Of a DNA stretch of 44,207 nt, positions 6,388-31,500 are shown one piece after another (the first letter of the stretch is position 1; each line of letters begins with the position of its first letter). The position numbers were made by a program, and so were the translations under genes. This stretch comes from Vulcanimicrobiota bacterium. Lineage in GTDB: Bacteria; Vulcanimicrobiota; Vulcanimicrobiia; Vulcanimicrobiales; Vulcanimicrobiaceae. The notes under the pieces were generated by a model. The model saw only the letters and a list, made by a program, of their open reading frames with translations, was not told where the DNA came from and searched no databases. The stretch lies in the NCBI GenBank assembly GCA_028287565.1, contig JAQBPK010000127.1, positions 1 through 44,207 on the forward strand, read 5' to 3'.

Positions 6388-7464
6388 CTAGGCTTGCGCG
6401 CGGATCAGCTCGTGGATCAGGCGGCGGGCTTGGAGCGCTCCGCGGTCGATGTTGATGCTCACCTCGGGGACGCGGCCTTCGGGATAGTCGAGCTCCAGCG
6501 CTTCGAGCGCGATAACATCCTCGTCGACGATCGCGTCTTGGATGCGCGCCATCGTCTCGGTGACCCACGGCTGGTCGGTCGCGAAGTCGCGGCTGACCGC
6601 CCAGAAGTCGTGCGTGGTGCGCTTGGTCTCGGGCGTGATCGCGTACATGATCTTCGCGTTGAAGCCCGGGCCGGTGTCGCCGGCCGGCGCGATGCGCACG
6701 CCGAGCACGTAGAACGACGGCACGGAGAACGCGATGTCCTGACTGCGGTCGATCTTGCCCGTGATGCCGGTCGATTTCGCGTAGAACGGCGGGCAGTCCG
6801 CGCCGTTCATTTGCCGCGAGACCTTCACGGTGAGGCCGTCGACTTCGGTTGCGATCGGCGTTTCCGCCACGTCGGGCGTGCCGATCGTCGCGCGATGGAT
6901 GAACGACTCGTGCGACAGATCGAGCAGGTTGTCGAGCAGCATCCCATAGCGGCAGCGAATCGTCGCGCTGTTCGTGAACGTTTCCCACGCCGGATCGCAC
7001 GCCCAGCTGTGATCGGGGATGCGCGACGCGTCGGCCTGCGCCGGATCGCCCATCCAGATCCACACGAACGGCCCGCTCTCAACGACCGGATACGAACGCA
7101 CGCACGCCGCGCGCGGAATGTTCGCTTGGCCCGGAACGGCGATGCAGTCGCCGGACGGCGCGAACGTGAAGCCGTGATAACCGCACACCAGCGCGTCGCC
7201 GCGAACCTCGCCCCGCGAGAGCGGATAGCTGCGGTGCGGACAGCGGTCGTAGAGCGCGGCGATGCCGCCGTCTTCCTTGCGGTAGAACGCGATCGGTTGG
7301 TCGAGGATGGTGCGGCGGACGGGCGTGCGCGTGATGGCGGCGCCAAGCTCGGCGACGTACCAGAAGTCGGGCAGGAACGCGTCGGGGATCCCGGTGCGCG
7401 AGACGGCGCCGGCGGACCCGATGGCGGCGCCCACGATGGGGCGCGGAGCGGTCTGTTGCTGCAT
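6388..7464 (-). CDS. Rieske non-haem iron oxygenase, vanillate O-demethylase (VanA)-type
   Basis: A 358-residue protein. The Rieske [2Fe-2S] site is CPHRSYPLSRGEVRGDALVC read with CGYHGF (CxH...CxxH). The mononuclear iron site is DNLLDLSHESFIH with a distal Asp/Glu in VDEDVIALE, giving the two-His-one-carboxylate triad. Length and domain order match single-component PobA/VanA-type oxygenases that demethylate or hydroxylate aromatic acids with electrons from a separate reductase. The ATG at 7464 follows a GGGAGG ribosome-binding site; the open frame further upstream crosses the promoter and is not coding. It is divergent from a MarR gene and carries a palindrome over its promoter. Substrate unknown; a methoxylated or carboxylated aromatic is likely. 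Confidence 0.87.
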   Translation of the reverse strand: MQQQTAPRPIVGAAIGSAGAVSRTGIPDAFLPDFWYVAELGAAITRTPVRRTILDQPIAFYRKEDGGIAALYDRCPHRSYPLSRGEVRGDALVCGYHGFTFAPSGDCIAVPGQANIPRAACVRSYPVVESGPFVWIWMGDPAQADASRIPDHSWACDPAWETFTNSATIRCRYGMLLDNLLDLSHESFIHRATIGTPDVAETPIATEVDGLTVKVSRQMNGADCPPFYAKSTGITGKIDRSQDIAFSVPSFYVLGVRIAPAGDTGPGFNAKIMYAITPETKRTTHDFWAVSRDFATDQPWVTETMARIQDAIVDEDVIALEALELDYPEGRVPEVSINIDRGALQARRLIHELIRAQA

Positions 7465-7588: not shown

Positions 7589-8050
7589 ATGTCGCTCGCA
7601 CGCATGCTGGCCTTCGCCGGGCACCAGATCCGGCGGTGCAATCAGATCGCGGTCGCCCTCTTCGCGGAGGAGGTCGGCGCGTTCGAGATCACGCCCGTGC
7701 AGTACGCCGCGCTCACGACGATCGCCGAGACGCCCGACCTCGATGCGACGCGCCTGGCGCAAATCGTCGCGTTCGACCGCTCCACGGTCGGCAACGTGCT
7801 CGAACGGCTGGAGGACCGCGGCCTCATCGACCGCGAGTACCGCCGCGACGACAAACGCACGAAACGGCTGCGCATCACCGCCGAAGGCCGCCGCGTACTG
7901 GACGCGATCGCACCGGCGGTCGCCCGCTCGCAGGCGCGTTTCATCGACGTGCTGTCGGCAACCGAACGGCGCCAGCTGCAGCGGCTTCTGACAAAGCTGA
8001 TTGAATGTCACGCGGCGGACGAAGCGCGCCTGGAGGAGTTGGCGAAGTGA
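7589..8050 (+). CDS. MarR family transcriptional regulator
   Basis: A 153-residue protein with the MarR winged helix: ITPVQYAALTTIAE, DATRLAQIVAFDRSTVGNVL (recognition helix region), then LEDRGLIDREYRRDDKR (wing with conserved Asp-Arg) and dimerising terminal helices. ATG at 7589 has a GGAGGGG ribosome-binding site. It probably represses the divergent Rieske oxygenase through the palindrome at 7514-7527 and perhaps itself; the ligand would be expected to be an aromatic acid. Its stop overlaps the next gene (GTGA). Confidence 0.9.
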   Translation: MSLARMLAFAGHQIRRCNQIAVALFAEEVGAFEITPVQYAALTTIAETPDLDATRLAQIVAFDRSTVGNVLERLEDRGLIDREYRRDDKRTKRLRITAEGRRVLDAIAPAVARSQARFIDVLSATERRQLQRLLTKLIECHAADEARLEELAK

Positions 8051-13070: not shown

Positions 13071-14012
13071 CTATGCGAGCGCGTTGCGGTCGATCAGGTC
13101 TTGCGCCGGGAACGCGGCTTTGAGCAGGCTGTAGCGTGCGGCCAAGTCGATCAGCGGCTGGATGTGCGCGGCATCGAGCTTTTCCGCGTAGACGCTACGG
13201 ACCATCGTGCGAAGGGTCGCCGGATCGATCTTCGTGGCGCGCGCGAGCACGTCGGCGCTCGCGGGCCCGTTCTTGTTCGCCCACGCGGCGCTCTCGCGCA
13301 TTACGACGACGACCTTCTTCACCAGATCGGGATGCGCGGCCGCCCACTTTTGCGACGTGAACCAGCCCGCGATCAGAAAGTCGGACGCTATCGCGTCGTA
13401 CGGCTTCGCGAAAACGCGCGCGCTCATCTTCGCCTCCGCCACCGCAGGCTCGGCGACGAGCGCCGCATCGACGCGGTGCGACGCGAGCGCTAGCGGCATG
13501 TCGGGGAACGGCATCTCAGAGAAGTTGGCGGTCTTGGAGTCGCCGCCGTTCTTGTCCATCCACGCCTGTACGGCGAGCTGCGTGATGTTCTTCAGGCCAT
13601 TGACCGCGATCGTCTTGCCGTTCAGTCCGCGCGCGTCGCGCACGGGCGAGTCTTTCGGCACCATCAGCACGGACGTCGGTGCTTTGGTGAGGTACAGCCC
13701 GGCCGGCGCGATCAGCGTGATCGGTATGCCCTTCTCGTGCGCGATCGCGAGCGAGAGGATGTTCGAGAAGCCGACGTCGATCGAACCGCCGACGACCGCA
13801 GACGTGATAGCGGCACCGTTCGGGATCGACTGGATCTGGCCGTCCAGTCCCGCTTTCGCAAAGATCTTCTCGGCGTCCGCGTAGTAAATCTGCGCGCCCG
13901 TGTCGATCGGGATCGTCGCGAAGCGCACCGTGTCGGCGGCGCGAGCGCGCAGCGGCAGCGCGGCGGCGGCCGCGCCGGCGGACAGGGCCTGAAGGACGGT
14001 CGAGCGTTTCAT
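13071..14012 (-). CDS. ABC transporter substrate-binding protein (NMT1/SsuA-like), last gene of tph operon
   Basis: A 313-residue protein. Residues 1-27 are a signal peptide (KRS, hydrophobic Ala/Leu core, ARA cleavage). The mature part has the NMT1/SsuA layout: IPIDTGAQIYYADAEKIFAK, GAAITSAVVGGSIDVGFSN, LNGKTIAVNGLKNITQLAV, and VDAALVAEPAVAEAK. Such proteins bind sulfonates, nitriles or aromatic acids and deliver them to a dedicated ABC importer. ATG at 14012 overlaps the ATPase stop (ATGA), and GAGAGGACT lies upstream. Being in one operon with terephthalate dioxygenase genes, the inferred ligand is terephthalate or a related aromatic dicarboxylate; this is context, not sequence proof. Confidence 0.85.
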   Translation of the reverse strand: MKRSTVLQALSAGAAAAALPLRARAADTVRFATIPIDTGAQIYYADAEKIFAKAGLDGQIQSIPNGAAITSAVVGGSIDVGFSNILSLAIAHEKGIPITLIAPAGLYLTKAPTSVLMVPKDSPVRDARGLNGKTIAVNGLKNITQLAVQAWMDKNGGDSKTANFSEMPFPDMPLALASHRVDAALVAEPAVAEAKMSARVFAKPYDAIASDFLIAGWFTSQKWAAAHPDLVKKVVVVMRESAAWANKNGPASADVLARATKIDPATLRTMVRSVYAEKLDAAHIQPLIDLAARYSLLKAAFPAQDLIDRNALA

Positions 14013-14851
14013 CGAGCGTGAGTCCTCTCGTTGGTGATGGCGGGTTCGGCTACGTCGGTTACGGGATCGGAGAGCTTTCCGATCAGCTCGTGGACTTGCT
14101 TGCGCAGCGCCAGGAACGTCGGGTCGCTGCGCGTCCGCACCTGTTCGCGCGGCTGCGGAAGCGCGACCGCGATCTCGCGGACGACGCGCGCCGGCGGGGG
14201 GCTCAGCACGAACACGCGGTCGGAGAGATATACCGCTTCGTCGATGTCGTGCGTGACGAGCAGCATCGTGATGCCGAACTCTGCGCGCAGGCGCAGCGTG
14301 AGATCCTCGAGGTCGGCGCGCGTGAGCGCATCCACCGACGCGAACGGCTCGTCGAGCAGCAAGATCTCGGAGCGGAACGCCACCGCGCGCGCGATCGCGA
14401 CGCGCTGCTGCATCCCGCCGGAGAGCTGCCACGGATAGTGCCCCGCAAATGCTGCGAGCCCAACCGCGGTGAGCGCCTCGTCGACCAGCACCGTCTTCTC
14501 GCCGGCGGCCAGGCGCTTCTTGCGCAGCGGAAACGAGACGTTGGCCGCGACGGTGAGCCACGGGAACAGCGAACGCGCGTAATCCTGGAACACGAGGACC
14601 ATCTCGGGCGGCGGAGCGGTCACGAGGCGCCCGTCGAGGAGGACGCGGCCGGCAGTCGGTTCCAACAGGCCGCAGATCGTCTTGAGAAGCGTGGTCTTCC
14701 CCGCGCCCGACGGTCCGACGAACGTGACGAACTCGCCGCGCCGAACGTCGAACGACAGGCGCTCGATCGCGAGGTGGCCCTGGCGGTAGCGCTTCTGCAG
14801 GCCGGAGACTTGCAGCACGACGTCGCGTGCATCGATGTCCTGCGGAGTCAT
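14009..14851 (-). CDS. ABC transporter ATPase (SsuB/TauB-like)
   Basis: A 280-residue protein with all ABC motifs: Walker A GPSGAGKTTLLK, Q-loop VFQDYARSLFPW, signature LSGGMQQR, Walker B ILLLDEPFASVD and H-loop THD. It has the compact form of taurine/sulfonate/nitrate-type importers. ATG at 14851 overlaps the permease stop (ATGA), and its own stop overlaps the binding protein start. The frame is open further upstream to 15655 but that stretch is a shadow of the permease gene. Confidence 0.93.
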   Translation of the reverse strand: MTPQDIDARDVVLQVSGLQKRYRQGHLAIERLSFDVRRGEFVTFVGPSGAGKTTLLKTICGLLEPTAGRVLLDGRLVTAPPPEMVLVFQDYARSLFPWLTVAANVSFPLRKKRLAAGEKTVLVDEALTAVGLAAFAGHYPWQLSGGMQQRVAIARAVAFRSEILLLDEPFASVDALTRADLEDLTLRLRAEFGITMLLVTHDIDEAVYLSDRVFVLSPPPARVVREIAVALPQPREQVRTRSDPTFLALRKQVHELIGKLSDPVTDVAEPAITNERTHAR

Positions 14852-15609
14852 CGGGTCACCGCGCTCGCACCGTGATGCCATGCCAGCACGCGCGCTTCGA
14901 CCAGCGAGAATAGCGCGTTGAGGCCGTAGCCGAGGATCGCGAGCAGCGCGATACCGGCGTACATCTCCGGAATCGAGAACGTGCGCTGCGCGGAGAGGAT
15001 CGCGTATCCGAGCCCGTTGCTGCTGCCCACCATCTCCGAGATGATGATCATGATGAACGCGAGCGCAAGGCCGATCCGCAGCCCGGCGAAGATCTGCGGC
15101 AGCGCGGACGGGAACGTCACGCTGACCACCGTCTCGAACCGCGAGAGCCCGAAGTTGCGCGCCGTGTCGAGCCGGTCCTCGGTGACTGAGCGTGCGCCGT
15201 CGACGCTGTTCACGAGGATCGGCCACACGGCGCCGAACGCGATCACCGCGATCTTCATGGAATCGCCGATTCCCAGCAGCAGGATGCCGACCGGGATGAC
15301 GGCCGTGGGCGGCAGCGCGCGCAGCACTTGGAGGATCGGATCGAGCGTGCGGTAGAGCGGATCCCACACGCCGATCGCGATGCCGAGCGTCACGCCGAAC
15401 AGCGTCGCGAGCGCGAATCCCGCGGCCAGACGCGCCAGGCTCGGGACCGCGTCGTGCGCGAACTGCGGCGAGAACCATTCGTGCACAAAGGTCACAGCGA
15501 TCTGCGACGGCGGCGTCACGTAGACGTTGGGATGCGCGCGCGCGGAGATCTCCCACGCGCCGAGCAGCACGAGGATGGTCGCGATCCCGAGCAGGCGGCG
15601 CGGCCGCAT
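14848..15609 (-). CDS. ABC transporter permease (SsuC/TauC-like), first of two
   Basis: A 253-residue protein with about six membrane helices and the binding-protein-dependent permease EAA-type loop around GARSVTEDRLDTARNFGLSRFE, where it couples to the ATPase. ATG at 15609 overlaps the stop of the other permease by one base (TGATG). The two permeases are paralogous (both contain LDTARNFGLSR) and probably form a heterodimer. Confidence 0.92.
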   Translation of the reverse strand: MRPRRLLGIATILVLLGAWEISARAHPNVYVTPPSQIAVTFVHEWFSPQFAHDAVPSLARLAAGFALATLFGVTLGIAIGVWDPLYRTLDPILQVLRALPPTAVIPVGILLLGIGDSMKIAVIAFGAVWPILVNSVDGARSVTEDRLDTARNFGLSRFETVVSVTFPSALPQIFAGLRIGLALAFIMIIISEMVGSSNGLGYAILSAQRTFSIPEMYAGIALLAILGYGLNALFSLVEARVLAWHHGASAVTR

Positions 15610-16388
15610 CAGAGCGCCTCCGCGCTGCGCCGGCTCGCCGGCGACCAGAAGACAACGCGCGCCTCCAACTGCGAGAACGCCGCGTTGATGAGCCAGCCGA
15701 TGAGCCCCGACAGCACGATGGCCGCGTACATCGGCGCGATGCGATTGGACTGTTCGGCCTGCGCGATGTAGTGGCCGATGCCGCTGTCGCCGACGACCAG
15801 CTCCACCGTGACGGTGACCGCGAGCGCGAGCGACGCGCTCACCCGCACGCCGGTCGCGATCCCGGCCAGCGACGCCGGGAGCACGACGCGCGCCAGCGTG
15901 TCGAGGCGCGAGAGGCCGAAGTTGCGCGCCGTGTCGAGGGCGAGCGGGTCGACGGAACGCACGCCGTACAGCGTGTTGATCAGCATCGGCCAGAACGACG
16001 CGTACACGATCATCACCAGCCGCATCTGCGGGCCCAGGCCGAAGAACAGCACCGCGAGCGGGATGAGCGACACCGAGGGCACCGGCCGCAGCAGGTCGAC
16101 GAGCGTCGAGAGCGCGTCGTACATCAGCGGGATGGTCCCCATGAGCAGGCCGACGACGATCGCCAGAGCGACGGCGGTGACGAATGCGACTGCCCACGTG
16201 GCGAGCGTGACACCGATCTGCGACGACAACGATCCGTTGGCCAGCTCGCGCCACAGCGCGACGAAGATCGCCGACGGCGGCGGGACGTGCCGCGTGAGCA
16301 ATCCCGATCGCGCGAGCGCTTCGACCGCGAGCGTCACGGCGACGACGAACGCCGCGGGCGGCGCCCACGCGGCGAGGCGGCGCTTCAT
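15609..16388 (-). CDS. ABC transporter permease (SsuC/TauC-like), second of two
   Basis: A 259-residue paralogue of the neighbouring permease with the same topology and coupling loop (GVRSVDPLALDTARNFGLSR). ATG at 16388 overlaps the tphB stop (ATGA), tying the importer to the catabolic genes by translational coupling. Two distinct permease genes in one SsuC-type importer suggest a heterodimeric channel. Confidence 0.92.
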   Translation of the reverse strand: MKRRLAAWAPPAAFVVAVTLAVEALARSGLLTRHVPPPSAIFVALWRELANGSLSSQIGVTLATWAVAFVTAVALAIVVGLLMGTIPLMYDALSTLVDLLRPVPSVSLIPLAVLFFGLGPQMRLVMIVYASFWPMLINTLYGVRSVDPLALDTARNFGLSRLDTLARVVLPASLAGIATGVRVSASLALAVTVTVELVVGDSGIGHYIAQAEQSNRIAPMYAAIVLSGLIGWLINAAFSQLEARVVFWSPASRRSAEAL

Positions 16389-17380
16389 CGCGCGCCCTCC
16401 GCCGCAAGCGAACCGGACGCGACCAGCTCGAGCGCGCGCAGCGTCGCGGTCGGGTCGGCGACACCGCGGCCCGCGATGTCGAACGCGCTGCCGTGCCCGA
16501 CGCTCGAGAACAACAAGCCGGCGCCGGTCGACAGCGCGGCCGCGGAGCGCGGCGCGAGCAGCTTGACCGGCACGTGCCCCTGATCGTGATACATGGCGAT
16601 GTACGCGTCGAGGTCGCGGCGCGCAAGCAGCGTGTCCGCGCCGGTCGGGCCGTGGACGTCGAGGCCGGCGCGGCGCAGCGAAGCGGCCGCGGGCGCGGTG
16701 ATGCGATCGTCGTCGTCTCCGAAGAGGCCGTTCTCGCCGGCGTGCGGATTGATCGCGAGCATCCCGATGCGCGGGTGCGCGATCCCCAGCGAGACCAGGG
16801 CCTGCGCAGCTGCAAGTCCGGCGGCCTCGACCAGCTCGGGCGTCAGCCGGTCGAGCGCGTCACGCAGCCGCTCGTGAAGCGTTGCGTGCACGATGCGCAA
16901 ACCGCCGCCGACCAGCATCAGGAAGACGCGCTCGGGCGGGATGTCGAGCAGACGGGCGAGCAGGCTCGGATAGCCGCTGAACGGGATGCCGGCGGCGTTG
17001 ACCGCGGTCTCCGAATGCGGGCAGGCGACGATCGCCGTCGCGACGCCGCGGCGCACCAGGCCGATCGCCGCTTCGACGTAGGCGACGGTTGCGGCGCCGG
17101 CCGCCGCGTTCACCATGCCGGGCCGAAGTGCGTCGGTCGGCAGCGAGCCGACGCGCACGAAGTTGATCGCGTGCGCGACGGGTGCGCCTTCGCGGTCGAG
17201 CTCGCGCAACGGAAGATGAGGCGCATGGCGCTCGGCGTAGCCGCGGATCACCGCCGCGTTTCCGACGAGGATCGGCGGCACGGTCCACGTGTCGGCCAGC
17301 ACCGCCGCTGCCTTGACGGCGACCTCGGGACCGATCCCGTTCGGATCGCCGATCGCGAGTGCGACGACGCGGGCGTCCAC
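16385..17380 (-). CDS. tphB: TphB-type dihydrodiol dicarboxylate dehydrogenase (PdxA family)
   Basis: A 331-residue PdxA-fold enzyme. N-terminus VVALAIGDPNGIGPEVAVK; then VACPHSETAV with IPFSGYPSLLARLL; metal-binding histidines in RIVHATLHE, AINPHAGENG and YHDQGHVPVKLL; C-terminal SSVGHGSAFDIAGRGVAD. PdxA itself acts in pyridoxine synthesis, but the segments FSGYPSLL, FLMLVGGGLRIVH and SSVGHGSA match what I recall of Comamonas TphB, which oxidises and decarboxylates the cis-diol from terephthalate to protocatechuate. Position directly after tphA2-tphA3 supports this role. GTG at 17380 starts 2 bp after the tphA3 stop. Confidence 0.88.
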   Translation of the reverse strand: MDARVVALAIGDPNGIGPEVAVKAAAVLADTWTVPPILVGNAAVIRGYAERHAPHLPLRELDREGAPVAHAINFVRVGSLPTDALRPGMVNAAAGAATVAYVEAAIGLVRRGVATAIVACPHSETAVNAAGIPFSGYPSLLARLLDIPPERVFLMLVGGGLRIVHATLHERLRDALDRLTPELVEAAGLAAAQALVSLGIAHPRIGMLAINPHAGENGLFGDDDDRITAPAAASLRRAGLDVHGPTGADTLLARRDLDAYIAMYHDQGHVPVKLLAPRSAAALSTGAGLLFSSVGHGSAFDIAGRGVADPTATLRALELVASGSLAAEGAR

Positions 17381-17382
17381 GG

Positions 17383-17850
17383 CTACAGCGGGAGCGCCAG
17401 CAGCGTGTCGATGCGCGAGCTGTCGCACACGACAATGCGCTCGGCGAGCTTCAGCGCATCGCCGTCCAGCCGCACGACGTCGACGTAGCGCCCGCTGGCG
17501 AAGACATCCGACGTCCCGTCGCGCATGATGCGCACGACCAGGAAGGACGTCTCCGCCCGCGTGCCCGCGTCGTCTTGGGCGAGGATGAACGGCGCGCCGA
17601 GGATGTGCCGGTAGGCGTGGCGCTCGTAGATGTTGGCCTCGCCCAGCGCCGACACGCGATCGACCAGCATCGCGCGCGAGTCAGCGTAGATCAGCCCGGC
17701 TTCGAGACCGTCATTGTAGTTCTGCGCGGTCGTCACTTTGTAGAGGCACCGCTCGCAGAAGAAGTCCGGCCATTCGGCGAGCGCGCCGTCGTCGATGCAG
17801 CGCGCGTACCGCGCGTTCAGTGCGGCGATCTGCGCGAAGGCGTCGGTCAC
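17383..17850 (-). CDS. tphA3: Terephthalate 1,2-dioxygenase small (beta) subunit
   Basis: A 155-residue ring-hydroxylating dioxygenase beta subunit (NTF2/SnoaL-like fold). It carries [20 protein letters not shown] and ends [19 protein letters not shown], which closely follow the TphA3 subunit as I remember it. Beta subunits are structural and form the alpha3beta3 hexamer. GTG at 17850 overlaps the alpha-subunit stop (GTGA). The upstream open frame to 17958 lies inside the alpha gene and is not used. Confidence 0.9.
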
Positions 17851-19118
17851 AGGCCCATCGCGGCGCGGTAGGCCTTCCAGAAGCCGCGCACGGACGCTTC
17901 GGTGGCGCGCGACTCGGACGATTCGGCCGTCGAGCCGCCCATCTCGAGCACCGCGCACTCGTCCGCCGCGCTCGCGATCCCGCGCTGCACGAACCCGCCC
18001 ACGCAGCCATCCTCCATCGACACGTAGCCCGCGGCGCCGACGAGATTCGACTGCTTGTGCCGGATCGTCCGCTGCTGCGGCGTGTCGTCGGCGAAGCCGA
18101 GATACGTCCAGTGCAGATCGGTGCGGTCGACCGCGCGCGGCAGGATCTGGCGCACCGCGATGACGTTCTGGATCTGCTGCAGTACGAAGCCGGGGAAGAC
18201 GGAGAGGATCTGCAGCGTGACGCCGTCCGGGAACTCGTCGAATCCTTCGAGCAGCGTGGGATCGGCGAGCTTGTACGACTCGTGCTCGGAGCGAAGCTGC
18301 TGGCTCGCGTACTCCTGGTCTTTCTCGGCGGCGCGGTCGATCGCCGAGAAGCTGACGTGGTGCCCGCCGCTGGGATCGACGATGATCCCGCCGCGCATCG
18401 AGAGCCGGTTCAGCCCGAACGTCGTGAAGAACAGATGCAGGATGCTCGCGTGATACGAGTCCTTGACGTTCTCCACGTACAGCTTCCAGTTGTTCGGCAA
18501 GCTCTGTGTGAAGCGCCCGAGCACGACCGGCGTGCGACCGCCGAGGACGCGCTCGATGCGCGCGACGATCTCATCGCCGAGATACTCGTGCAAAGCGGGC
18601 GCGGACGGCAAGAGCGTAGCGAACACCAAGCCGGCGACGCTCTCGACGCGCAGCTTGCGCGGCCCGTGGTCCTCCATGCAGAATGAGGGCGGCATTCCGC
18701 CCTCGCCACGCACGCCGTTCTTGAACGCGACTCCTTTGAGGTTGCCCTTGAGGTCGTAGTTCCAGGCATGGTACACGCAGCTGAAGCTCTTCACGGTGCC
18801 GCGATCGTCGAGCGCGAGCAGCGCGCCGCGGTGCGCGCAGCGGTTCTCGAACGCGTTGATCGCGCCGTCACGGTCGCGCACCACGACAACCGGCATCTGC
18901 CCGACGAACGTGGACCGGAAATCGCCGGCGTTCGGGATCTCCGCTTCGAGGCAGAGATAGTTCCACGCCGGTCCCTCGAACAGCCGTTGCTGCTCGGCAG
19001 CGTACACGTCGGCCGCTTCGAACACCCAGTACGGCACGCGCGTGAGCCCCTCGCGCGGCCACGTGCGGGTCGAAATCGTGGAGCTGTCGGAGACGCCGGG
19101 AGCCGCTACGGTCGCCAT
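17847..19118 (-). CDS. tphA2: Terephthalate 1,2-dioxygenase large (alpha) subunit, Rieske type
   Basis: A 423-residue Rieske dioxygenase alpha subunit. Rieske ligands: CAHRG (C94, H96) and CVYH (C114, H117). Mononuclear iron ligands: H223 and H228 in [10 protein letters not shown] plus D370 in SMEDG. The pattern [37 protein letters not shown] and [19 protein letters not shown] matches TphA2 throughout. Arg323 (IAVRQ) and Arg404 (SRATE) lie 81 residues apart, the spacing of the two arginines I recall as holding terephthalate's distal carboxylate in Comamonas TphA2 (R309, R390). ATG at 19118 follows AAAGGTTC. First gene of the operon. No reductase (TphA1) is adjacent. Confidence 0.92.
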
Positions 19119-19187: not shown

Positions 19188-19223
19188 GTGAAACATACGT
19201 TTTGCAATGTGAAACGCATTGCA
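19188..19223. promoter_or_regulatory. Probable regulator-binding region upstream of the tph operon
   Basis: Seventy base pairs ahead of tphA2 lies a perfect inverted repeat TGCAATG-N7-CATTGCA (19203-19223). The motif GTGAAAC occurs at 19188-19194 and 19209-19215, exactly 21 bp (two helical turns) apart. Such spaced repeats suit an IclR- or LysR-type activator, as used by known tph clusters. No regulator gene is adjacent, so the binder is unknown. Confidence 0.45.
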
Positions 19224-19746
19224 TTGAGGTCGTCGGCGGGGCACCAGTACCGCTGTCACGATCGCGCGGTCAAGCGCGTGTGCGGAGGTACGAACCGAAA
19301 AAGCCCGGGCTACTTGGAGCCCGATCGCCGACGAAAGGACGCATCTCCGACGTAACGAGCCGCCCGCCGATACCGTGCCATCTAGTCTCGCGAAGTACCG
19401 CGCGATTATCGAGCGCGGGAGACGGTGGCAGCGCGAAGAAAATTTTCATCGGGATGCATCGAACATTTGTGCGACGTCTGTGGTATAATGACGACGGATC
19501 GACGTCACGATAGAACGTGTCGGAGTTCCACACAACTAAAGCGGCCCGATCAGTGGTTGTAACACTGACCGGGCCCGTCACCCGATGGAGTTAACCCACC
19601 GAATGACAGTCCGCGAGTTCGACGCGTCCGCGTCGACCACCCGGCCCGCATCCTCGCCGCAGGATCGTGGCCGCCGCCCCATCACCCGAATCGCACGACC
19701 CGTAGCGCGATTCCGCCGCCACGAAGCGGCCTAGAGGGCACGACAC
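19224..19746. other. 523-bp stretch without a convincing gene
   Basis: Open frames on both strands here have no recognisable protein features. The stretch holds the hairpin at 19543-19575 and the leader of the 107-residue gene. It marks the change from the GC-rich tph operon to the AT-richer island. Confidence 0.5.
19543..19575 (+). terminator. Strong hairpin (13-bp stem, one mismatch) in the leader of the 107-residue gene
   Basis: GGCCCGATCAGTG, seven-base loop, CACTGACCGGGCC. No T-run follows, so it may be a leader structure or bidirectional terminator rather than a classical one. Confidence 0.4.
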
Positions 19747-21507: not shown

Positions 21508-23280
21508 CTAATACATTTCATAATCGATAGATTCGTCATCCTCCTCTTCGTAGTCTTCATCATCTACGTCTACGTCTACGTCATCAACTTCGCCGAACTC
21601 CGCTTCCAAGGCCTGAGATCGCCGAGTCAGCATGTTCAAAATCCAAGCGGGCACCAAATGATCCTCGGCGGCTCGTACGGGTAATTCAACGACCGGTTCG
21701 GCCCCCGGAGCTTCCGCTAAGATGCCTGGACGCTCGAATGTTGGTGGCGAAGTTGGTACGACGGCTGACGCCGGCCCGGCTGGTGGAACAATCGGAGCGG
21801 CGGTCGTCAGGGCGTCTTCCTCATAGAAATGAACACCCGCCCGTCGCATGGCATCAAAGGATGCGTCCGCGGCAATAATGTCGGTCGGCGGAGTCAGCCA
21901 GCCCTTTACTATCGATTCATACACGAGCAGCCAGTTAGCATCGTAAAGGTCATCTGCGGTCAGAAGAGCGACCCACCTTGACGTGTCGAGCGTACCACTA
22001 ACCAAGCCGTTCGCTTGCAAGTCCAATGCAATGATGGCAGCCGGAGAGGAATTTATTCTGCCGAGAAGACTTGAGATCGACCGCGGCACCGAGAATCGTA
22101 GATTCTTGAAAAGCCATAGAGACCAGATGAGTTCGCTATCACGATCGAAAGCTAACGATTCTTTGATAACGCCGGCGAAATAGCGCATTACCCGACTCTT
22201 ATCTAGAGATGCGCCACGCTGTGCGGCCTCGTACAGCGCAATTGCAACGTAGTCGATCGTGTTTGGGCTGAGGGTCACCGAGCGCAGCAGGTACGACTCG
22301 AGCACGCTCCAGTCAGTCTCGTCGACCTCGCGTCTAGATATTACACGGATGGCATATTTCAGAGCATTTTCCTGTGTTCCGTTAAGTCTTACCGCGACAT
22401 CGAAAAGCTTGTGGATTTCCTTCGTTGAAATCTTCCTTGCATCGCTGAATTGGAAGTCGCGAAGTTGATCGAGTCCAACTTCGTCAAGTAATTCTTTGAC
22501 ATGCTGGATCGACGTCTTTGAATAATTCAGATCGATCTCAAACTCACGGGCAGCCGATGCCAGTCGCTCTAGGTTCTTAACCGCATCGGCTTCCGAATCG
22601 AAACAAAGAAAGTAATCATCTACGTAACGGTACCCTGAAGGCGTACGGGGAAAAGCATTTGCGTCAATTACGGAAGCGATAATTTCGCTAACTACGTGCG
22701 CAACGTCGGAGCTAACTGGGATACCAGCCGTCTGTTGGTCCTGGCCGTTTCGGATGGCGGCATCAAGGTCATTGCCGGTACTCGGTGTCCGTCTATTAGC
22801 CTTTGACCAAGGCTTCCCATGGATCGCCCAAGGTATCGAATGCGTATATATCGATGAGAAGAACCGTGCGAAGTCAGTCTGCAGCACGTATCTATGCGAG
22901 GCGAGCGCCTGCAAGCGCAATTCCGGAAGGGGTCTGCTCGGACCGAGATTTGTAGCGCGCTCGCGCCCGACTCCCTTTAGTGCGGTGAACCGCGGTCTAC
23001 TCTCTGAAAGCTTCGACTTCTTGAAAATACGGCGAATATCAGCCCAATGGGTTCCTACGGCGCGCGCCTGCCGAATGTAGTGAACCGGATTCGTGATACG
23101 AAGTATTCGACGGCTGTAACCGCTTCGGCCGAGATTGAACACCTCCGGCCTAGACGTATGCGGATCTTGCGCTGCCGCTATAATTCCCGGATACGAGCCA
23201 GCCAACGAGACAGAGGTAAACTCCGGCGGAAATTCCTTCGGTAAATAACCAAGCCCGATGAGCCGACGTGTCTTATTCAA
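21508..23280 (-). CDS. Defence-type reverse transcriptase (UG/DRT class, subgroup unassigned)
   Basis: A 590-residue protein. RT motifs in order: an N-terminal region (LGYLPKEFPPEF; IPxNP-like ITNPVHYI), motif A LQTDFARFFSSIYTHSIPWA with its catalytic Asp, motif B region GIPVSSDVAHVVSEIIASVI, and the catalytic YRYVDDYFLCF (YxDD box), then LNYSKTSI. Motif A with YTHSIPWA matches a group of bacterial RTs from defence islands, not group II intron RTs: no maturase or endonuclease domain is present. A helical ~250-residue region follows, then a very acidic tail of ~30 residues rich in Asp/Glu. No retron-type partner was recognised. It lies in AT-richer DNA. Confidence 0.85.
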   Translation of the reverse strand: MNKTRRLIGLGYLPKEFPPEFTSVSLAGSYPGIIAAAQDPHTSRPEVFNLGRSGYSRRILRITNPVHYIRQARAVGTHWADIRRIFKKSKLSESRPRFTALKGVGRERATNLGPSRPLPELRLQALASHRYVLQTDFARFFSSIYTHSIPWAIHGKPWSKANRRTPSTGNDLDAAIRNGQDQQTAGIPVSSDVAHVVSEIIASVIDANAFPRTPSGYRYVDDYFLCFDSEADAVKNLERLASAAREFEIDLNYSKTSIQHVKELLDEVGLDQLRDFQFSDARKISTKEIHKLFDVAVRLNGTQENALKYAIRVISRREVDETDWSVLESYLLRSVTLSPNTIDYVAIALYEAAQRGASLDKSRVMRYFAGVIKESLAFDRDSELIWSLWLFKNLRFSVPRSISSLLGRINSSPAAIIALDLQANGLVSGTLDTSRWVALLTADDLYDANWLLVYESIVKGWLTPPTDIIAADASFDAMRRAGVHFYEEDALTTAAPIVPPAGPASAVVPTSPPTFERPGILAEAPGAEPVVELPVRAAEDHLVPAWILNMLTRRSQALEAEFGEVDDVDVDVDDEDYEEEDDESIDYEMY

Positions 23281-24519: not shown

Positions 24520-26865
24520 ATGCCAATTTCACCTGACCGTATTATCCCACTTCGAGAAGCGTTGCGTCATCTGCATGCGGTCGACACTTCTCTCAGCGAC
24601 CGCGATCGGAACCCATTCTTCTTCATCGTGGGAAGCGGCATATCAGTTCCCGCAATCCCGACTTCCTCTGAAATCGTTCGCGACTGCAGAGCAATGTTGG
24701 GCGACCTTGACGAACCGCTCGCTCTTACGGCCGCGCAAAAGTATTCTTATTGGTTTAGCAAGGCATACCCTCAGCCCGTTGATCGCCAACGATATCTTGA
24801 ATCACTAATAAGGCGCGCCAAAGCTACGCCCGCTGTGCTAGCGCTCGCGCACTTATTGATCGAAGGGCGCCTCGCCAAGCTAGTCATTACGCCTAACTTC
24901 GATGACCTGCTTGCGCGCGCCCTACTCCTGTTTGGCGCACGTCCTTTGATCTCCGATCATCCGTATACTGTCGGGCGCGTTGATCCAGAATCACCAGAAA
25001 TTCAAATCGTCCATGTTCATGGGTCGTATTATTACTATGACCTCGCCAACCTAGATGCTGAAATATATGATCGCCGTACAACTAAGATTGGTGCGCCTGT
25101 TGCTATTCCTGAACTACTCGGCCGTGTTCTATGGGACCGATCTCCCATTGTTATTGGCTACGCGGGGTGGCCTGGCGACGTAATTATGACTGCCTTAGAG
25201 AGACGTCTTCGATCGGTTCTTAATAGAAATCTGTATTGGTTCTGCTATAACGAAAATGACATCGCGATGCTTCCTGATTGGCTAACCGGAAACTCAAATG
25301 TACTTTTCGTCGTGGCTGAAAAGGCGCTGAGGGAACCTGCTCCCCATACCGCGCCTGACGGGAAACGAGCGCCTGTGGATAAAGGGGATAATCCGGAGCC
25401 GTCGGTTTTAGGTCGAAGCGACCCAATTTCCTTGCCGGCAGACCGCGTTCTAACCGATTTAATTTCGAAGTTGAAGTTACGCGCGCCAGCATTAACGGTT
25501 TCGCCTATCAACTTTTTTTACGAGCAAGTGTCCTCCGCAGTGGAGGGCGCAATTGGTGTAAACGACACGCGTGGTGGTTATTACTTAAGCGAGGTACTTG
25601 ACCGCATTCGCCACGCCCGCGATCTCGAACAACAACATGGTGAACGCGCTACCGAAGAGTTTGGCCGCTTTCTCGACGCCGTGAGAAGAGCTTCGCAGGA
25701 CCAAGTTGCGGAACTCGGCGCCAGTCTACTTCCGCACCCTCTGTCCATTGTGCAGTTACGAGAAGTAGCAAATGCATTGCGCGTTGCAGCAGGCTCGACC
25801 CAAATTTCGGAGCCGTCGAGAACCTTAGCACTGCTTTCTCTGGATAAGACGCTCGAGCGCATTGCGGACGAAGGCAGGTCCGATACAGATCGCAAGTCCT
25901 GGTTGCGTGAGCGCCTTACAATTGCTGATCAATTATATACTTTAGGCCGAATAGATGAAGAACTGAGAATCTACGACGACACCATTCGCCGTTGTTCGGC
26001 GACAAAAGACCCGGCCCTCATGGCGTGCGTCATCCTAGCGACGCAATACAAGGCGAACACGTTCGCAAATAAGCGGCGCGAGTACAGTGAGGCATTGCAA
26101 CTGATTGCTGACGTTCTGCAGACCTATGCAGGCGAGTGTAGTATTGACGTTCGCGACGCGCTCGCAGACTCTGAATTTGCGGCAGCGCTGATCCGACGCT
26201 CTCGCGGGGATGATACGACTGGTGAGCTTCGCGAAATCGCGACAAAGTATAAGAATGCGGAGTCTCCTGCTCAGGTTAGAATGGCAGCGTTGGCCCTAAA
26301 CATTTTGGCGGAAGAAGCGTACAGCCACGAGGGCATAGAGGGCGAGTTTCCGTTGCGCGAAGAGCTTGAGGAACTCACGAGAACACGACCGACACTTAAG
26401 CATGAACGCGTGGATAATCTTCGCGAGATGATTGCAAGCAGTTCCCTAAGCGATCAAAATGAGCAGGCGAATCGATTAGCTAAAGTGGCCTTAAGCGTCC
26501 TCGCCGACGCGGACGATGCTCGCAGCCAGTTGCAACGCGCTCAGGTGTTGCGTTGGAAGTTCTCGGCAGAGTCCGATCCACATGATTACGAGGGTACACT
26601 TGCCGAGTTACTTGCGATCAACTCCGATGATGTCCAAGGAGTTGCGGCGCTGCAGCGGCTAGTCTTACGACGGCTCGTTGAGAGGTACCGCGCCGAAAAC
26701 CGCGCCGACAAGGTTGACGCTTTCGTGCAGAGCCTCGGATCAGCTAGGGCGATCGCGACGGCGCAACAGGCGATAAGCGCCCTTCGCAGAGAGGCAAACA
26801 CTAAGTCGGTCCGTAACGTATCGCCGAAGCCATCGCGCCGTCGACCTACGCCGCAATCGAAATAA
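24520..26865 (+). CDS. SIR2-domain defence protein with long helical C-terminal region
   Basis: A 781-residue protein. Residues ~30-300 are a SIR2 (NADase) domain: FFFIVGSGISVPAIPTSSEI (GxGxS and proline turn), LVITPNFDDLLARAL (TxNxD), and VHVHGSY (the conserved His-Gly). The remaining ~450 residues are helical and TPR-like (LYTLGRIDEELRIYDDTIRR; YSEALQLIADVLQTYAG). This layout matches anti-phage SIR2 proteins that deplete NAD+ on infection, with the helical part sensing or oligomerising. ATG at 24520 has no strong ribosome-binding site. Base composition is more AT-rich than the flanking operons. It is divergent from the reverse transcriptase, separated by an IS relic. Confidence 0.85.
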   Translation: MPISPDRIIPLREALRHLHAVDTSLSDRDRNPFFFIVGSGISVPAIPTSSEIVRDCRAMLGDLDEPLALTAAQKYSYWFSKAYPQPVDRQRYLESLIRRAKATPAVLALAHLLIEGRLAKLVITPNFDDLLARALLLFGARPLISDHPYTVGRVDPESPEIQIVHVHGSYYYYDLANLDAEIYDRRTTKIGAPVAIPELLGRVLWDRSPIVIGYAGWPGDVIMTALERRLRSVLNRNLYWFCYNENDIAMLPDWLTGNSNVLFVVAEKALREPAPHTAPDGKRAPVDKGDNPEPSVLGRSDPISLPADRVLTDLISKLKLRAPALTVSPINFFYEQVSSAVEGAIGVNDTRGGYYLSEVLDRIRHARDLEQQHGERATEEFGRFLDAVRRASQDQVAELGASLLPHPLSIVQLREVANALRVAAGSTQISEPSRTLALLSLDKTLERIADEGRSDTDRKSWLRERLTIADQLYTLGRIDEELRIYDDTIRRCSATKDPALMACVILATQYKANTFANKRREYSEALQLIADVLQTYAGECSIDVRDALADSEFAAALIRRSRGDDTTGELREIATKYKNAESPAQVRMAALALNILAEEAYSHEGIEGEFPLREELEELTRTRPTLKHERVDNLREMIASSSLSDQNEQANRLAKVALSVLADADDARSQLQRAQVLRWKFSAESDPHDYEGTLAELLAINSDDVQGVAALQRLVLRRLVERYRAENRADKVDAFVQSLGSARAIATAQQAISALRREANTKSVRNVSPKPSRRRPTPQSK

Positions 26866-28534: not shown

Positions 28535-31500
28535 TTATCGTTGCGAAAGCGCCTCGCTTACAATCCGCTCCTGCTCGACCGCATGAGCCCCCGGGTACCC
28601 CTCTGACGGACTTGCCCGATACGGCCGGCCCACGTAGTCGATTTCCTCCAGCCCATGCGGCAGCTTCTCAACGAGCCGCCGGCGCACATGAGCGCGGGCG
28701 CCCATGTTCTTCGGCTCTTCTTGGACCCAGGTCGCCTCCTTCACGTTCGGGTAGCTCCCGATCGTCAACAAAATCTCCTTGACCGGGAGCGGGCTCAGCA
28801 GCTCCACGCGCACGATCGCGGTCTTCGTTGCCTTCTCGTACAGCGGGCTCGACGTCAGGTCGTAGTACACGTGGCCCGTGCACAGCAGCACCCGCTCCAC
28901 GCCGTTCTTGTCGCCGCCGGCGTAGCGCGGATCGTCGATCACCTCGTGGAACGTTCCCGTCGCGAGGTCGTCAATCGTGCCGTATGCCGCTCGATTGCGG
29001 AGCAGCGACTTCGGCGTCAGCACCACCAGCGGGTATGCCTGTGCCGCCTTCGCCTGCGCTCGCAGCAGGTGGAAGTACTGCGCCGCCGTCGAGCAGTTCG
29101 CCACCCGGATGTTGCCCTCGGCCGACAGTTGTAAGAACCGCTCCAGCCGCGCGCTCGAGTGTTCCGGGCCTGCGCCTTCGTAGCCGTGCGGCAACAGTAG
29201 CGTCAGGCGCGTCTGCTGGCCCCACTTTGCCGCGCCGGCGGCGATGAACTGATCGATGATCACCTGGGCGTTGTTGTTGAAGTCGCCGAATTGCGCTTCC
29301 CACAGCACCAGGGCGTTCGGGATCTCGAAGCTGTAGCCGTACTCGAAGCCCAGGCACGCGTACTCGCTCAGCGGCGAGTTATGAATCTCGAACGACGCCT
29401 TCGCGTCGCGCAGGTGCTGCAGCGGCACGTGCTTTGCGTTTGTGCGCGCGTCGTGCAACGCGGCGTGGCGGTGCGAGAACGTGCCGCGCTCGGTGTCCTG
29501 GCCGGTGATGCGGATCGGCGTCCCGTCATTCAGCAGCGACGCGAACGCCAGCGCTTCCGCCAGTCCCCAGTCCACCTCGCCCGTTTCGTGCAGTGCCTGC
29601 GTGCGCTTCGCGAACTGCCCCAGCAGCTTCTTGTTCGGCGCGAAGCCATCGGGCACGCGCGTGACGTCGTCGCTCCAGCGCAGCAGCTGTCCCTTGTCGA
29701 CCGTCGTGTCGGCCGGCGCTTCGGTCACGCGCCCAGGCACGGCGGCCTGGATCAGCTTCGCCTTGAACTCGCCGCTCTTGACGCTCTTGTGCGCCTCGGC
29801 AATGCGCGCCGTCGCGGTGTCCTGCATCTCCTTGATCTGCTCGTTCGTCAGTACGCCCTGCGCCGCGAGCTGGCCCGCGTAGAGCTCGCGCACGGTCGGG
29901 TGCTGCTTGATCAAGTCAGACTTCGTCGGCTGCGTGTACGCCGGTTCGTCCTGTTCGTTGTGGCCGAAGCGGCGGTAGCCGATGAGGTCGACCACCACGT
30001 CGCGGCCGAACTTGCGGCGGTAGTCGATCGCCAGGTGCACCGCGGCGATCGACGCGTCCACGTCGTCCGCGTTGACGTGCACGATCGGCAGGTCGTAGCC
30101 CTTCGCCAGATCGCTCGCGTAGCGCGTCGAGCGCGCTTCGCTGGGATCGGTCGTGAAACCGACTTGGTTGTTCGAGATGATGTGGATCGTGCCGCCGGTC
30201 GCGTAGCCCGCGAGCGCCTGCAGGTTGAGCACTTCGGCCACGATGCCTTGCGCCGCGAACGCCGCGTCGCCGTGGATCAGGATCGGCGCCGCCACTTCGT
30301 GGTTGAGGGTCGGCGGGTTCGCCGTGTGGTCGGTTTGCAGGCAGCGCGTCATGCCTTCGACCACGCCGTCCACCGCTTCCAGGTGCGACGGGTTGCTGGC
30401 GAGCTCGACCGTGATCTTCGTGCCGACCGGCGTCACGTACTCGCCGTGCGCGCCGTGGTGGTATTTCACGTCGCCGGTCGCGTCGTCGTCGTCGCCGGCG
30501 TGCGCCTCCTCGCGCAGTGACGCTGCTTCGAACTCCGCCAGCAGCTCTTCGTACGGGCGGTTCACCACGTGCGCGATCGTCGAGAGGCGTCCGCGGTGCG
30601 CCATGCCGAGCACCACGGTCTTCGTGCCGTCCTCCGCCAGCAGCGAGATGGTTTCTTCCAGCATCGGAACCATCACGTCGAGGCCTTCGATCGAGAACGT
30701 CTTCTGCGACATGAACTGCTTGCGGAAGTAGCGCTCCATTACCTCGACCTTGGTGAGGCGCTGGAGCACTTGCACGCGGCGTTGCGGCGTGAGCTCGCGG
30801 CGGTGCATGCCCGTCTCGATGTACTCGCGCAGCCACTCGCGCTTCCGTGTGTTGGAGATGTGCTCGATCTCATAGGCGATCGTCGAGCTGTACGTTTTCT
30901 TCAGCTCGGGCAGCACGTCGGCGAGCGTCTTGCCCGGCAGCTTCACGTTGAGCACCGACGCCGGGATCGCTTGCATCATCGCCGGCGTGAGGCCGTACGT
31001 CGCGGGGTCGAGCGACGGGTCGTTCGGGGGTTCGGTGCCGAGCGGGTCGAGCGTTGCGCCGAGGTGGCCGTGGCGGCGGTATGCCGACACGATCGCCATC
31101 CCCGCGGCGATCGCGCGCAGCATCTCTTCCGACGGCAGGCCCGGGATGTCGGCGGTGACCGGCTCCTCGCGCTCGCGCACCGCCGGCGGCGCGCCGTTCG
31201 CGCTCGACGCGACGCCGCGCACCGCGGCCGTTACGCCCAGTTGCGCGAACACGGTTTCGTAGAAGTCGTCGGCGCCGCCGAGCAGATCGTCAACGCGGCG
31301 CAGGTATTCGCCCGACTGCGCGCCTTGGATGACGCGGTGGTCGTAGGTCGAGGTGAGCGTCATGACTTTCTCGACGCCCAGTTGCTCCAGCGACGAGCGC
31401 GATGCGTGGCCGAAGCCCGGCGGGTATGCGATCGCGCCCGCGGCGATGATCGCGCCTTGGCCGATCATCAGGCGCGGCACCGATGCGACGGTGCCGATGC

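Follow-up and report, generated by a model that had tools for sequence, protein, structure and literature searches.

Terephthalate catabolic genes share one operon with a complete ABC importer in a Vulcanimicrobiota bacterium

Does an operon that joins genes for terephthalate oxidation to those of an ATP-binding cassette (ABC) importer encode an uptake route for terephthalate itself? The question is raised by a 44,207-nt stretch of DNA from a Vulcanimicrobiota bacterium (GCA_028287565.1, contig JAQBPK010000127.1, positions 1–44,207 of the forward strand; hereafter the window, with its host genome labeled G000), in which ORF (open reading frame) reading and translation revealed seven complete ORFs, free of internal stops, on the minus strand from 19118 to 13071. 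Their order is TphA2, TphA3, TphB, permease 1, permease 2, ATPase, and an NMT1/SsuA-type binding protein (Table 1), and their six junctions comprise five overlaps (4, 4, 1, 4, and 4 bp) and one 2-bp gap between beta and TphB. Domain calls on the operon proteins (Pfam and NCBIfam) recovered all parts of an NMT1/SsuA-type ABC importer, namely an NMT1 binding protein, two BPD_transp_1 permeases, and one ATPase. An earlier note on this DNA had described the same gene series, with neighbors overlapping by 1–4 bp or lying at most 2 bp apart, and both descriptions hold: all seven ORFs are intact with the domains claimed, and the measured overlaps are 1 or 4 bp. Its wording "fused in one operon" is apt for one tight operon, although no proteins are joined into one chain. 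We consider it probable that the seven genes form one operon for terephthalate capture and first attack, in which an ATP-driven importer would be co-expressed with the enzymes, and ABC uptake of terephthalate is, on the sequence evidence, the most likely reading.

The best PDB match of the alpha subunit is to terephthalate dioxygenase chains (7vju/7q04, 600 bits), compared with 313 bits for salicylate 5-hydroxylase. In a tree of 97 rows (the window, 80 genome loci, 10 plasmid loci, and six outgroup rows representing five genes, one gene of genome G092 having been fetched twice), the subunit falls inside a 91-row TphA2 clade with 100/100 support, together with R. jostii RHA1 and P. xenovorans LB400 (73% and 70% identity, respectively), its placement within the clade being weakly resolved (84/85). 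A position outside this clade had been set beforehand as the outcome that would speak against the assignment; the subunit instead lies within it and carries the motif described below. All Rieske ligands (C/H/C/H: C94, H96, C114, and H117) and Fe ligands (H/H/D: H223, H228, and D370) are present. For the Comamonas enzyme, a passage of PMC9060491 proposes N224, S243, R309, and R390 as terephthalate recognition residues, and alignment places N237, S256, R323, and R404 of the window's subunit at these positions. Within the clade, S256, R323, and R404 each occur in 91/91 rows and N237 in 90/91; outgroup rows have R323 in 6/6, R404 in 2/6, N237 in 2/6 (both from the one G092 gene), and S256 in 0/6. 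The earlier note had singled out Arg323 and Arg404 as conserved at the right spacing, which stands insofar as both match R309 and R390 and are kept throughout the clade, but because all outgroup rows also keep R323, this arginine by itself is not diagnostic, and the signal is carried by R404, S256, and N237.

The best PDB match of TphB is 4aty, terephthalate 1,2-cis-dihydrodiol dehydrogenase (344 bits), followed by the 8zhy group at 282 bits (labeled 4-hydroxythreonine-4-phosphate dehydrogenase) and 1ps6/1ps7, which we take to be Escherichia coli PdxA, at 119 bits. By PDB match scores alone, it is closer to TphB than to PdxA. Judged by orthology and motif, the oxygenase is a TphA2A3-type terephthalate 1,2-dioxygenase with predicted activity on terephthalate, as the earlier note had called it.

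The operon is real and conserved. In palsa_1479, a Candidatus Eremiobacterota bacterium metagenome-assembled genome (MAG) of the same genus as the host (locus L023, genome G121), the seven genes stand in identical order, with 76%–84% identity per protein. A blastn comparison of the whole window with ~19 kb around the palsa_1479 operon matched only at 13072–19063 (81% DNA identity), with two short additional matches inside that interval, in the permease genes. Ratios of nonsynonymous to synonymous divergence (dN/dS, NG86) ranged from 0.16 to 0.31 over the seven genes, with the lowest value in the binding protein (0.157), and synonymous divergence (dS) between the two operons was 0.45–0.66. Since the arrangement recurs in another genome of the genus and the DNA match is limited to the operon, it is not due to chance; and given the shared order, the confined match, and the low dN/dS, the ABC genes have been retained alongside the catabolic ones across considerable divergence and in changed surroundings. 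Across the phylum, alpha was found at E ≤ 1e-120 in 3/149 genomes: the host itself, G121, and G092, the last with 50% identity and outside the TphA2 clade.

In the proposed pathway, terephthalate, or a para-dicarboxylated aromatic close to it, would be captured by the binding protein on the outer side of the inner membrane, and the permease pair and ATPase would import it at the expense of ATP. The TphA2A3 oxygenase would then dihydroxylate it to the 1,2-dihydrodiol dicarboxylate, which TphB would oxidize and decarboxylate to protocatechuate, with onward degradation predicted via a cluster for 4,5-cleavage that lies elsewhere in the host genome (G000:C332). That contig encodes, in a row, a 4-oxalomesaconate tautomerase-like protein (374 bits, cut-off 440), two amidohydrolase-family proteins, LigA and LigB (both above their cut-offs), and a GFO/IDH/MocA (LigC-like) protein, the LigC name and the amidohydrolase roles resting on position and family instead of an equivalog match. 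The best structure for LigB is protocatechuate 4,5-dioxygenase (1b4u), and by these assignments the C332 genes form a cluster for protocatechuate 4,5-cleavage. A 3,4 route for protocatechuate via two PF00775 matches was rejected, as the LigAB cluster fits better. The same genome also holds a second oxygenase/binding-protein pairing on contig C333 (locus L122, 3305–8222, minus strand), where genes for an FAD oxidoreductase and an NMT1 binding protein come after a paralogous alpha/beta oxygenase pair, which is itself preceded by a gene resembling an FAA-type hydrolase; this alpha is 43% identical to the window's and has N at the R404 position.

To place the importer among other tph transport genes, 80 genome and nine plasmid tph loci were surveyed with our own phmmer queries within 6 kb of alpha. 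The genome loci carried major facilitator superfamily (MFS) genes in 36 cases, a tripartite tricarboxylate transporter (TTT) binding protein in 27, only an NMT1 binding protein in five, an ABC set in four (two of these also counted under MFS), and none in 10; for plasmids, the counts were MFS 3, TTT 2, ABC 2 (pLDW-10 and pTC1), and none 2. Several contigs end near alpha, and the "none" counts are hence upper bounds. The ABC set lies on alpha's strand in palsa_1479 and in L074, a contig of 3,993 bp that bears the title Devosia equisanguinis MAG and on which binding protein, ATPase, permease, and alpha follow one another; at L031 and L037, a divergent ABC set stands beside an MFS gene. Tph clusters occur on plasmids (L014–L022 and L103) of two phyla, Actinomycetota and Pseudomonadota, some of them typed as conjugative (pPVG21, pLDW-10, and pTC1).

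Arthrobacter crystallopoietes pLDW-10 and Paenarthrobacter aurescens pTC1 resemble the window in joining tphA2A3B to an NMT1-type ABC set, with identities between pLDW-10 and the window of 38% for the permeases, 54% for the ATPase, and 34% for the binding protein. The permeases match in register (38% each, versus 28% and 32% when crossed). These plasmids differ in having TphA1, IclR, and an amidase, in placing the permeases ~450–600 bp after tphA1 and the binding protein upstream, and in the positions of their oxygenase and binding protein elsewhere in the trees. Forcing the window, palsa_1479, L017, and L022 into one alpha clade cost 28.6 log-likelihood units (p-AU 0.043, indicative only, as the group was named after the tree had been seen), and the binding proteins of window/palsa_1479 and the Arthrobacter-group loci are also apart in their tree. 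With a joint alpha clade disfavored and the binding proteins apart, the trees suggest two separate couplings of tph genes to ABC sets as the simpler reading.

Among described systems, the Rhodococcus tpa clusters (RHA1 pRHL2) share the alpha-beta-TphB order with the window (73%, 66%, and 59% identity, respectively) but have their own TphA1, an MFS transporter, and an IclR regulator, and their adjoining ABC set is divergent and of another subfamily. Comamonas-type tph operons with TphC (TTT) likewise combine TphA2A3 and TphB with uptake specificity from a solute-binding protein; as described in a section of PMC13040137, however, TTT systems are ion-driven with membrane parts encoded elsewhere, whereas the window's importer would be ATP-driven and is complete in the operon. 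The same section of that 2026 review names MFS and TTT for terephthalate and ABC systems (PatDABC and OphFGH) for ortho-phthalate, and the portion of a 2025 synteny survey (PMC12577307) bearing on transport gives two systems for the tph operon, TphK and TphC. PatDABC and OphFGH resemble the window in ABC import of a phthalate isomer, PatDABC also in having two permeases (PMC13040137, in part). Sequence comparison covered the ABC set beside RHA1 tpa, of the two systems, and this set, taken as PatDABC by position (the record gives no such name), is 27%–28% identical to the window in its permeases, 42% in the ATPase, and 25% over 143 aa in the binding protein. Given these low identities and a separate place in the binding-protein tree, the window's importer does not appear to be a PatDABC ortholog, with the RHA1 set identified by position only. 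In the open-licence literature, judged by titles and abstract openings, no description of an ABC terephthalate importer was found. ABC import coupled to a tph operon is thus undescribed as far as we found, though visible in public plasmid records. The earlier suggestion that an ABC importer coupled to TphB may be a new terephthalate uptake route is supported to the extent that MFS and TTT alone are named for this compound in the consulted sections of both sources (PMC13040137, PMC12577307), and is narrowed by the occurrence of the coupling in palsa_1479, pLDW-10, pTC1, and the Devosia-type contig and by known ABC import of ortho-phthalate.

Several observations weigh against reading the operon as one for terephthalate capture and first attack. 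It is not a complete tphA2A3BA1 set: the operon has no TphA1-type reductase, a point the earlier note did not raise, and no reductase match was found in the window or the palsa_1479 locus. G000 was searched by family and by protein query, and a TphA1 query returned one marginal match (E 7.9e-4 over 61 residues, within a 1,372-codon open frame). A FAD_binding_6 search found none in G000 and, in G121, one protein of another kind, which follows a gene resembling a molybdopterin oxidoreductase (judged from first residues), and Reductase_C was found in neither genome; listed completeness is 84% for G000 and 83% for G121. Queries for IclR, MFS, and TTT had no match in the window, so that no tph-type regulator stands beside the operon. 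A missing tphA1 near tphB is not unique to the window, because TphB without a reductase match within 6 kb was also seen at eight others of the 80 loci, all of which carry a TTT binding protein; at 12/80, neither TphB nor a reductase matched within that distance. These searches gave no candidate for the electron-supply step, and electrons would presumably come from a donor other than TphA1. G000 holds several Rieske oxygenases yet no FAD_binding_6 protein.

The binding protein adds to these objections. Its fold relatives bind sulfonates, taurine, pyrimidines/thiamine-type compounds, or pyrroloquinoline quinone, and its structural model is of moderate confidence (mean pLDDT 70.2, with residues 261–313 below 50; closest folds SsuA/TauA), a model that places the fold, not the ligand. 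In the tree, the window's protein falls within a clade of 28 rows (100/100 support) made up of proteins from its own bacterial family, grouping with those encoded beside other enzymes and apart from the Arthrobacter tph-linked ones, and a shared specificity would therefore not have been inherited from a tph-linked ancestor. Terephthalate is its predicted ligand. Residues common to the tph-linked binding proteins but rare among 26 paralogs include K222 (K in 0/26); as the model gives no reliable pocket, this set was not used as evidence.

Where, then, did the importer come from? The best NCBIfam model for the ATPase is TIGR01184, below its cut-off, and its best PDB matches are CmpC/CmpD and nitrate transporter ATPases. 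Relatives of the permease pair and ATPase were sought in 12 genomes; the closest after G121 are in G120 (58%, 69%, and 76%), adjoining a zinc-alcohol dehydrogenase, an FAA hydrolase, and an AMP-ligase, and in G092 (58%, 60%, and 70%), adjoining an apparent meta-cleavage set (judged from first residues). For related binding proteins within the family, 16 loci were fetched and one to three chosen neighbors scanned at each: six had a Rieske oxygenase (five adjacent, one within ~2 kb), one each UbiD, LigAB, and a molybdopterin-binding hydroxylase, and seven none of these. G092, a ~5-Mb assembly from the host's family with 7% contamination, encodes no fewer than 116 NMT1 binding proteins and 114 Rieske domains, against 30 permease matches at E ≤ 1e-20, and its core nearest the window's had no binding-protein match in the 19 kb fetched around it. 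Proximity in G092 was modest: 21 of 116 listed NMT1 proteins lie ≤2 kb from one of the 114 Rieske domains (shifted-contig mean 13.9, standard deviation [sd] 3.4; 64/2000 shifts as high), and in the subfamily of the window's binding protein 5/15 do so (random mean 1.9; 57/2000 as high), using start coordinates only, with approximate lengths for contigs not fetched.

The relatives in the family, the excess of binding proteins over permeases in G092, and the lone core together suggest that the tph operon recruited a resident aromatic-acid importer. We tentatively raise the further possibility, which we rate as rather doubtful, of a modular family system in which one ABC core is shared by, or re-used with, many substrate-specific binding proteins, each encoded beside the aromatic-acid enzyme that it feeds; in the tph operon, core, binding protein, and enzymes would then have come together in a single portable cassette for a natural, pre-industrial supply of terephthalate. 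TTT/Bug expansions are known from Bordetella, and a modular ABC system would be their ATP-driven counterpart. Contigs C80, C24, C34, and others of G092 (L142–L155 and L174) may represent such an ABC counterpart.

It is improbable, in our judgment, that the importer's true ligand is a precursor of terephthalate or its neighbor in the pathway (a mono-ester, terephthalamate, protocatechuate, 4-hydroxybenzoate, or another aromatic acid), feeding the same enzymes after hydrolysis or joining later. Such a ligand would fit the amidase gene between binding protein and tphA2 at both Arthrobacter-group loci, the several enzyme kinds that related binding proteins accompany, and the reported need for PatDABC in growth on both phthalate and its monoalkyl esters (noted in part of PMC13040137), but neither the window's nor the palsa_1479 operon has a hydrolase, and its first enzyme is predicted to act on terephthalate itself.

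Less probable again is that the true substrate of both oxygenase and importer is a para-dicarboxylated aromatic of natural origin, for instance hydroxy- or amino-terephthalate released from humic or lignin material, with terephthalate a mere analog. The sister genome's isolate name, "palsa" (presumably a permafrost peat mound), is in keeping with this, as is the dS of 0.45–0.66, which would imply that the operons were kept far longer than industrial terephthalate has existed. Terephthalate dioxygenase also oxidizes 2-hydroxy- and 2-amino-terephthalate, according to a passage of PMC9060491. Yet the four checked terephthalate-contact residues are unchanged, and sequence cannot tell these substrates apart. 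We regard it as very unlikely that the ABC genes take up a nutrient foreign to this pathway (sulfonate, taurine, or nitrate) and share the promoter by accident. Hidden Markov models and fold do indicate NMT1/SsuA-type families, but in two genomes whose flanks are unrelated the block has been conserved and selected in its entirety, tph genes are accompanied by related ABC sets in another phylum as well, and the binding protein scores below the sulfonate (88 bits, cut-off 164) and taurine (44 bits, cut-off 304) models.

Regulatory elements upstream of the operon are weak candidates (Table 1). The palsa_1479 DNA upstream of its operon gave no match to the candidate operator region, terminator-like sites were not above chance (three observed vs. 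3.5, sd 2.0, in shuffles), and Rfam had no match upstream of the operon or within the window. About 5 kb past the operon end, the window encodes a VanA-type Rieske oxygenase (6388–7464, minus strand) and a divergent MarR regulator (7589–8050, plus strand). Upstream, a region of lower GC content at ~20–28 kb, likely a defense island, holds a reverse transcriptase (21508–23280, minus strand; top PADLOC models Drt6/Drt4) and a protein with a SIR2-like domain (24520–26865, plus strand). Farther on, a 1,407-aa ORF (28535–32758, minus strand) unites lipoyl/acyltransferase and 2-oxoglutarate dehydrogenase E1 domains.

Table 1. Genes of the tph–ABC operon and candidate upstream elements, in window coordinates.
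Feature	Position	Strand	Remarks
tphA2, terephthalate 1,2-dioxygenase alpha subunit	17847..19118	(-)	423 aa; Rieske + Ring_hydroxyl_A; assigned by PDB match, tree, motif residues
tphA3, terephthalate 1,2-dioxygenase beta subunit	17383..17850	(-)	155 aa; GTG start; 4-bp overlap with alpha; PF00866; 65.6% identity to RHA1 beta
tphB, PdxA-family cis-dihydrodiol dehydrogenase	16385..17380	(-)	331 aa; GTG start; 2-bp gap after beta; PF04166; best PDB 4aty
ABC permease 1	15609..16388	(-)	259 aa; 4-bp overlap with TphB; PF00528; 76% to palsa_1479, 38% to Arthrobacter pLDW-10 permease 1
ABC permease 2	14848..15609	(-)	253 aa; 1-bp overlap with permease 1; PF00528; 83% to palsa_1479, 38% to Arthrobacter pLDW-10 permease 2
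ABC ATPase, nitrate/sulfonate/taurine (NrtCD/TauB) type	14009..14851	(-)	280 aa; 4-bp overlap with permease 2; PF00005
Periplasmic binding protein, NMT1/SsuA family	13071..14012	(-)	313 aa; 4-bp overlap with ATPase; PF09084; N terminus signal-like by eye
Candidate operator, TGCAATG-N7-CATTGCA inverted repeat + two GTGAAAC copies 21 bp apart	19188..19223		70–105 bp upstream of tphA2; weak
Terminator-like hairpin upstream of operon	19305..19324	(-)	weak; second at 19543–19575

Terephthalate is a building block of polyethylene terephthalate plastic, and a passage of PMC13040137 describes transport as a step that limits the transfer of terephthalate catabolism to new hosts. Limited distribution and high conservation of terephthalate catabolism have been read, in a passage of PMC12577307, as a likely sign of a fairly recent introduction of the compound. 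Purifying selection has maintained a tph operon in two diverged genomes from a phylum that has received little study, which bears on whether the pathway arose recently in response to plastics or is an older trait of natural origin. If terephthalate is indeed what it carries, an importer driven by ATP and equipped with a binding protein of its own would constitute a third class of terephthalate uptake, possibly one of high affinity at low concentrations.

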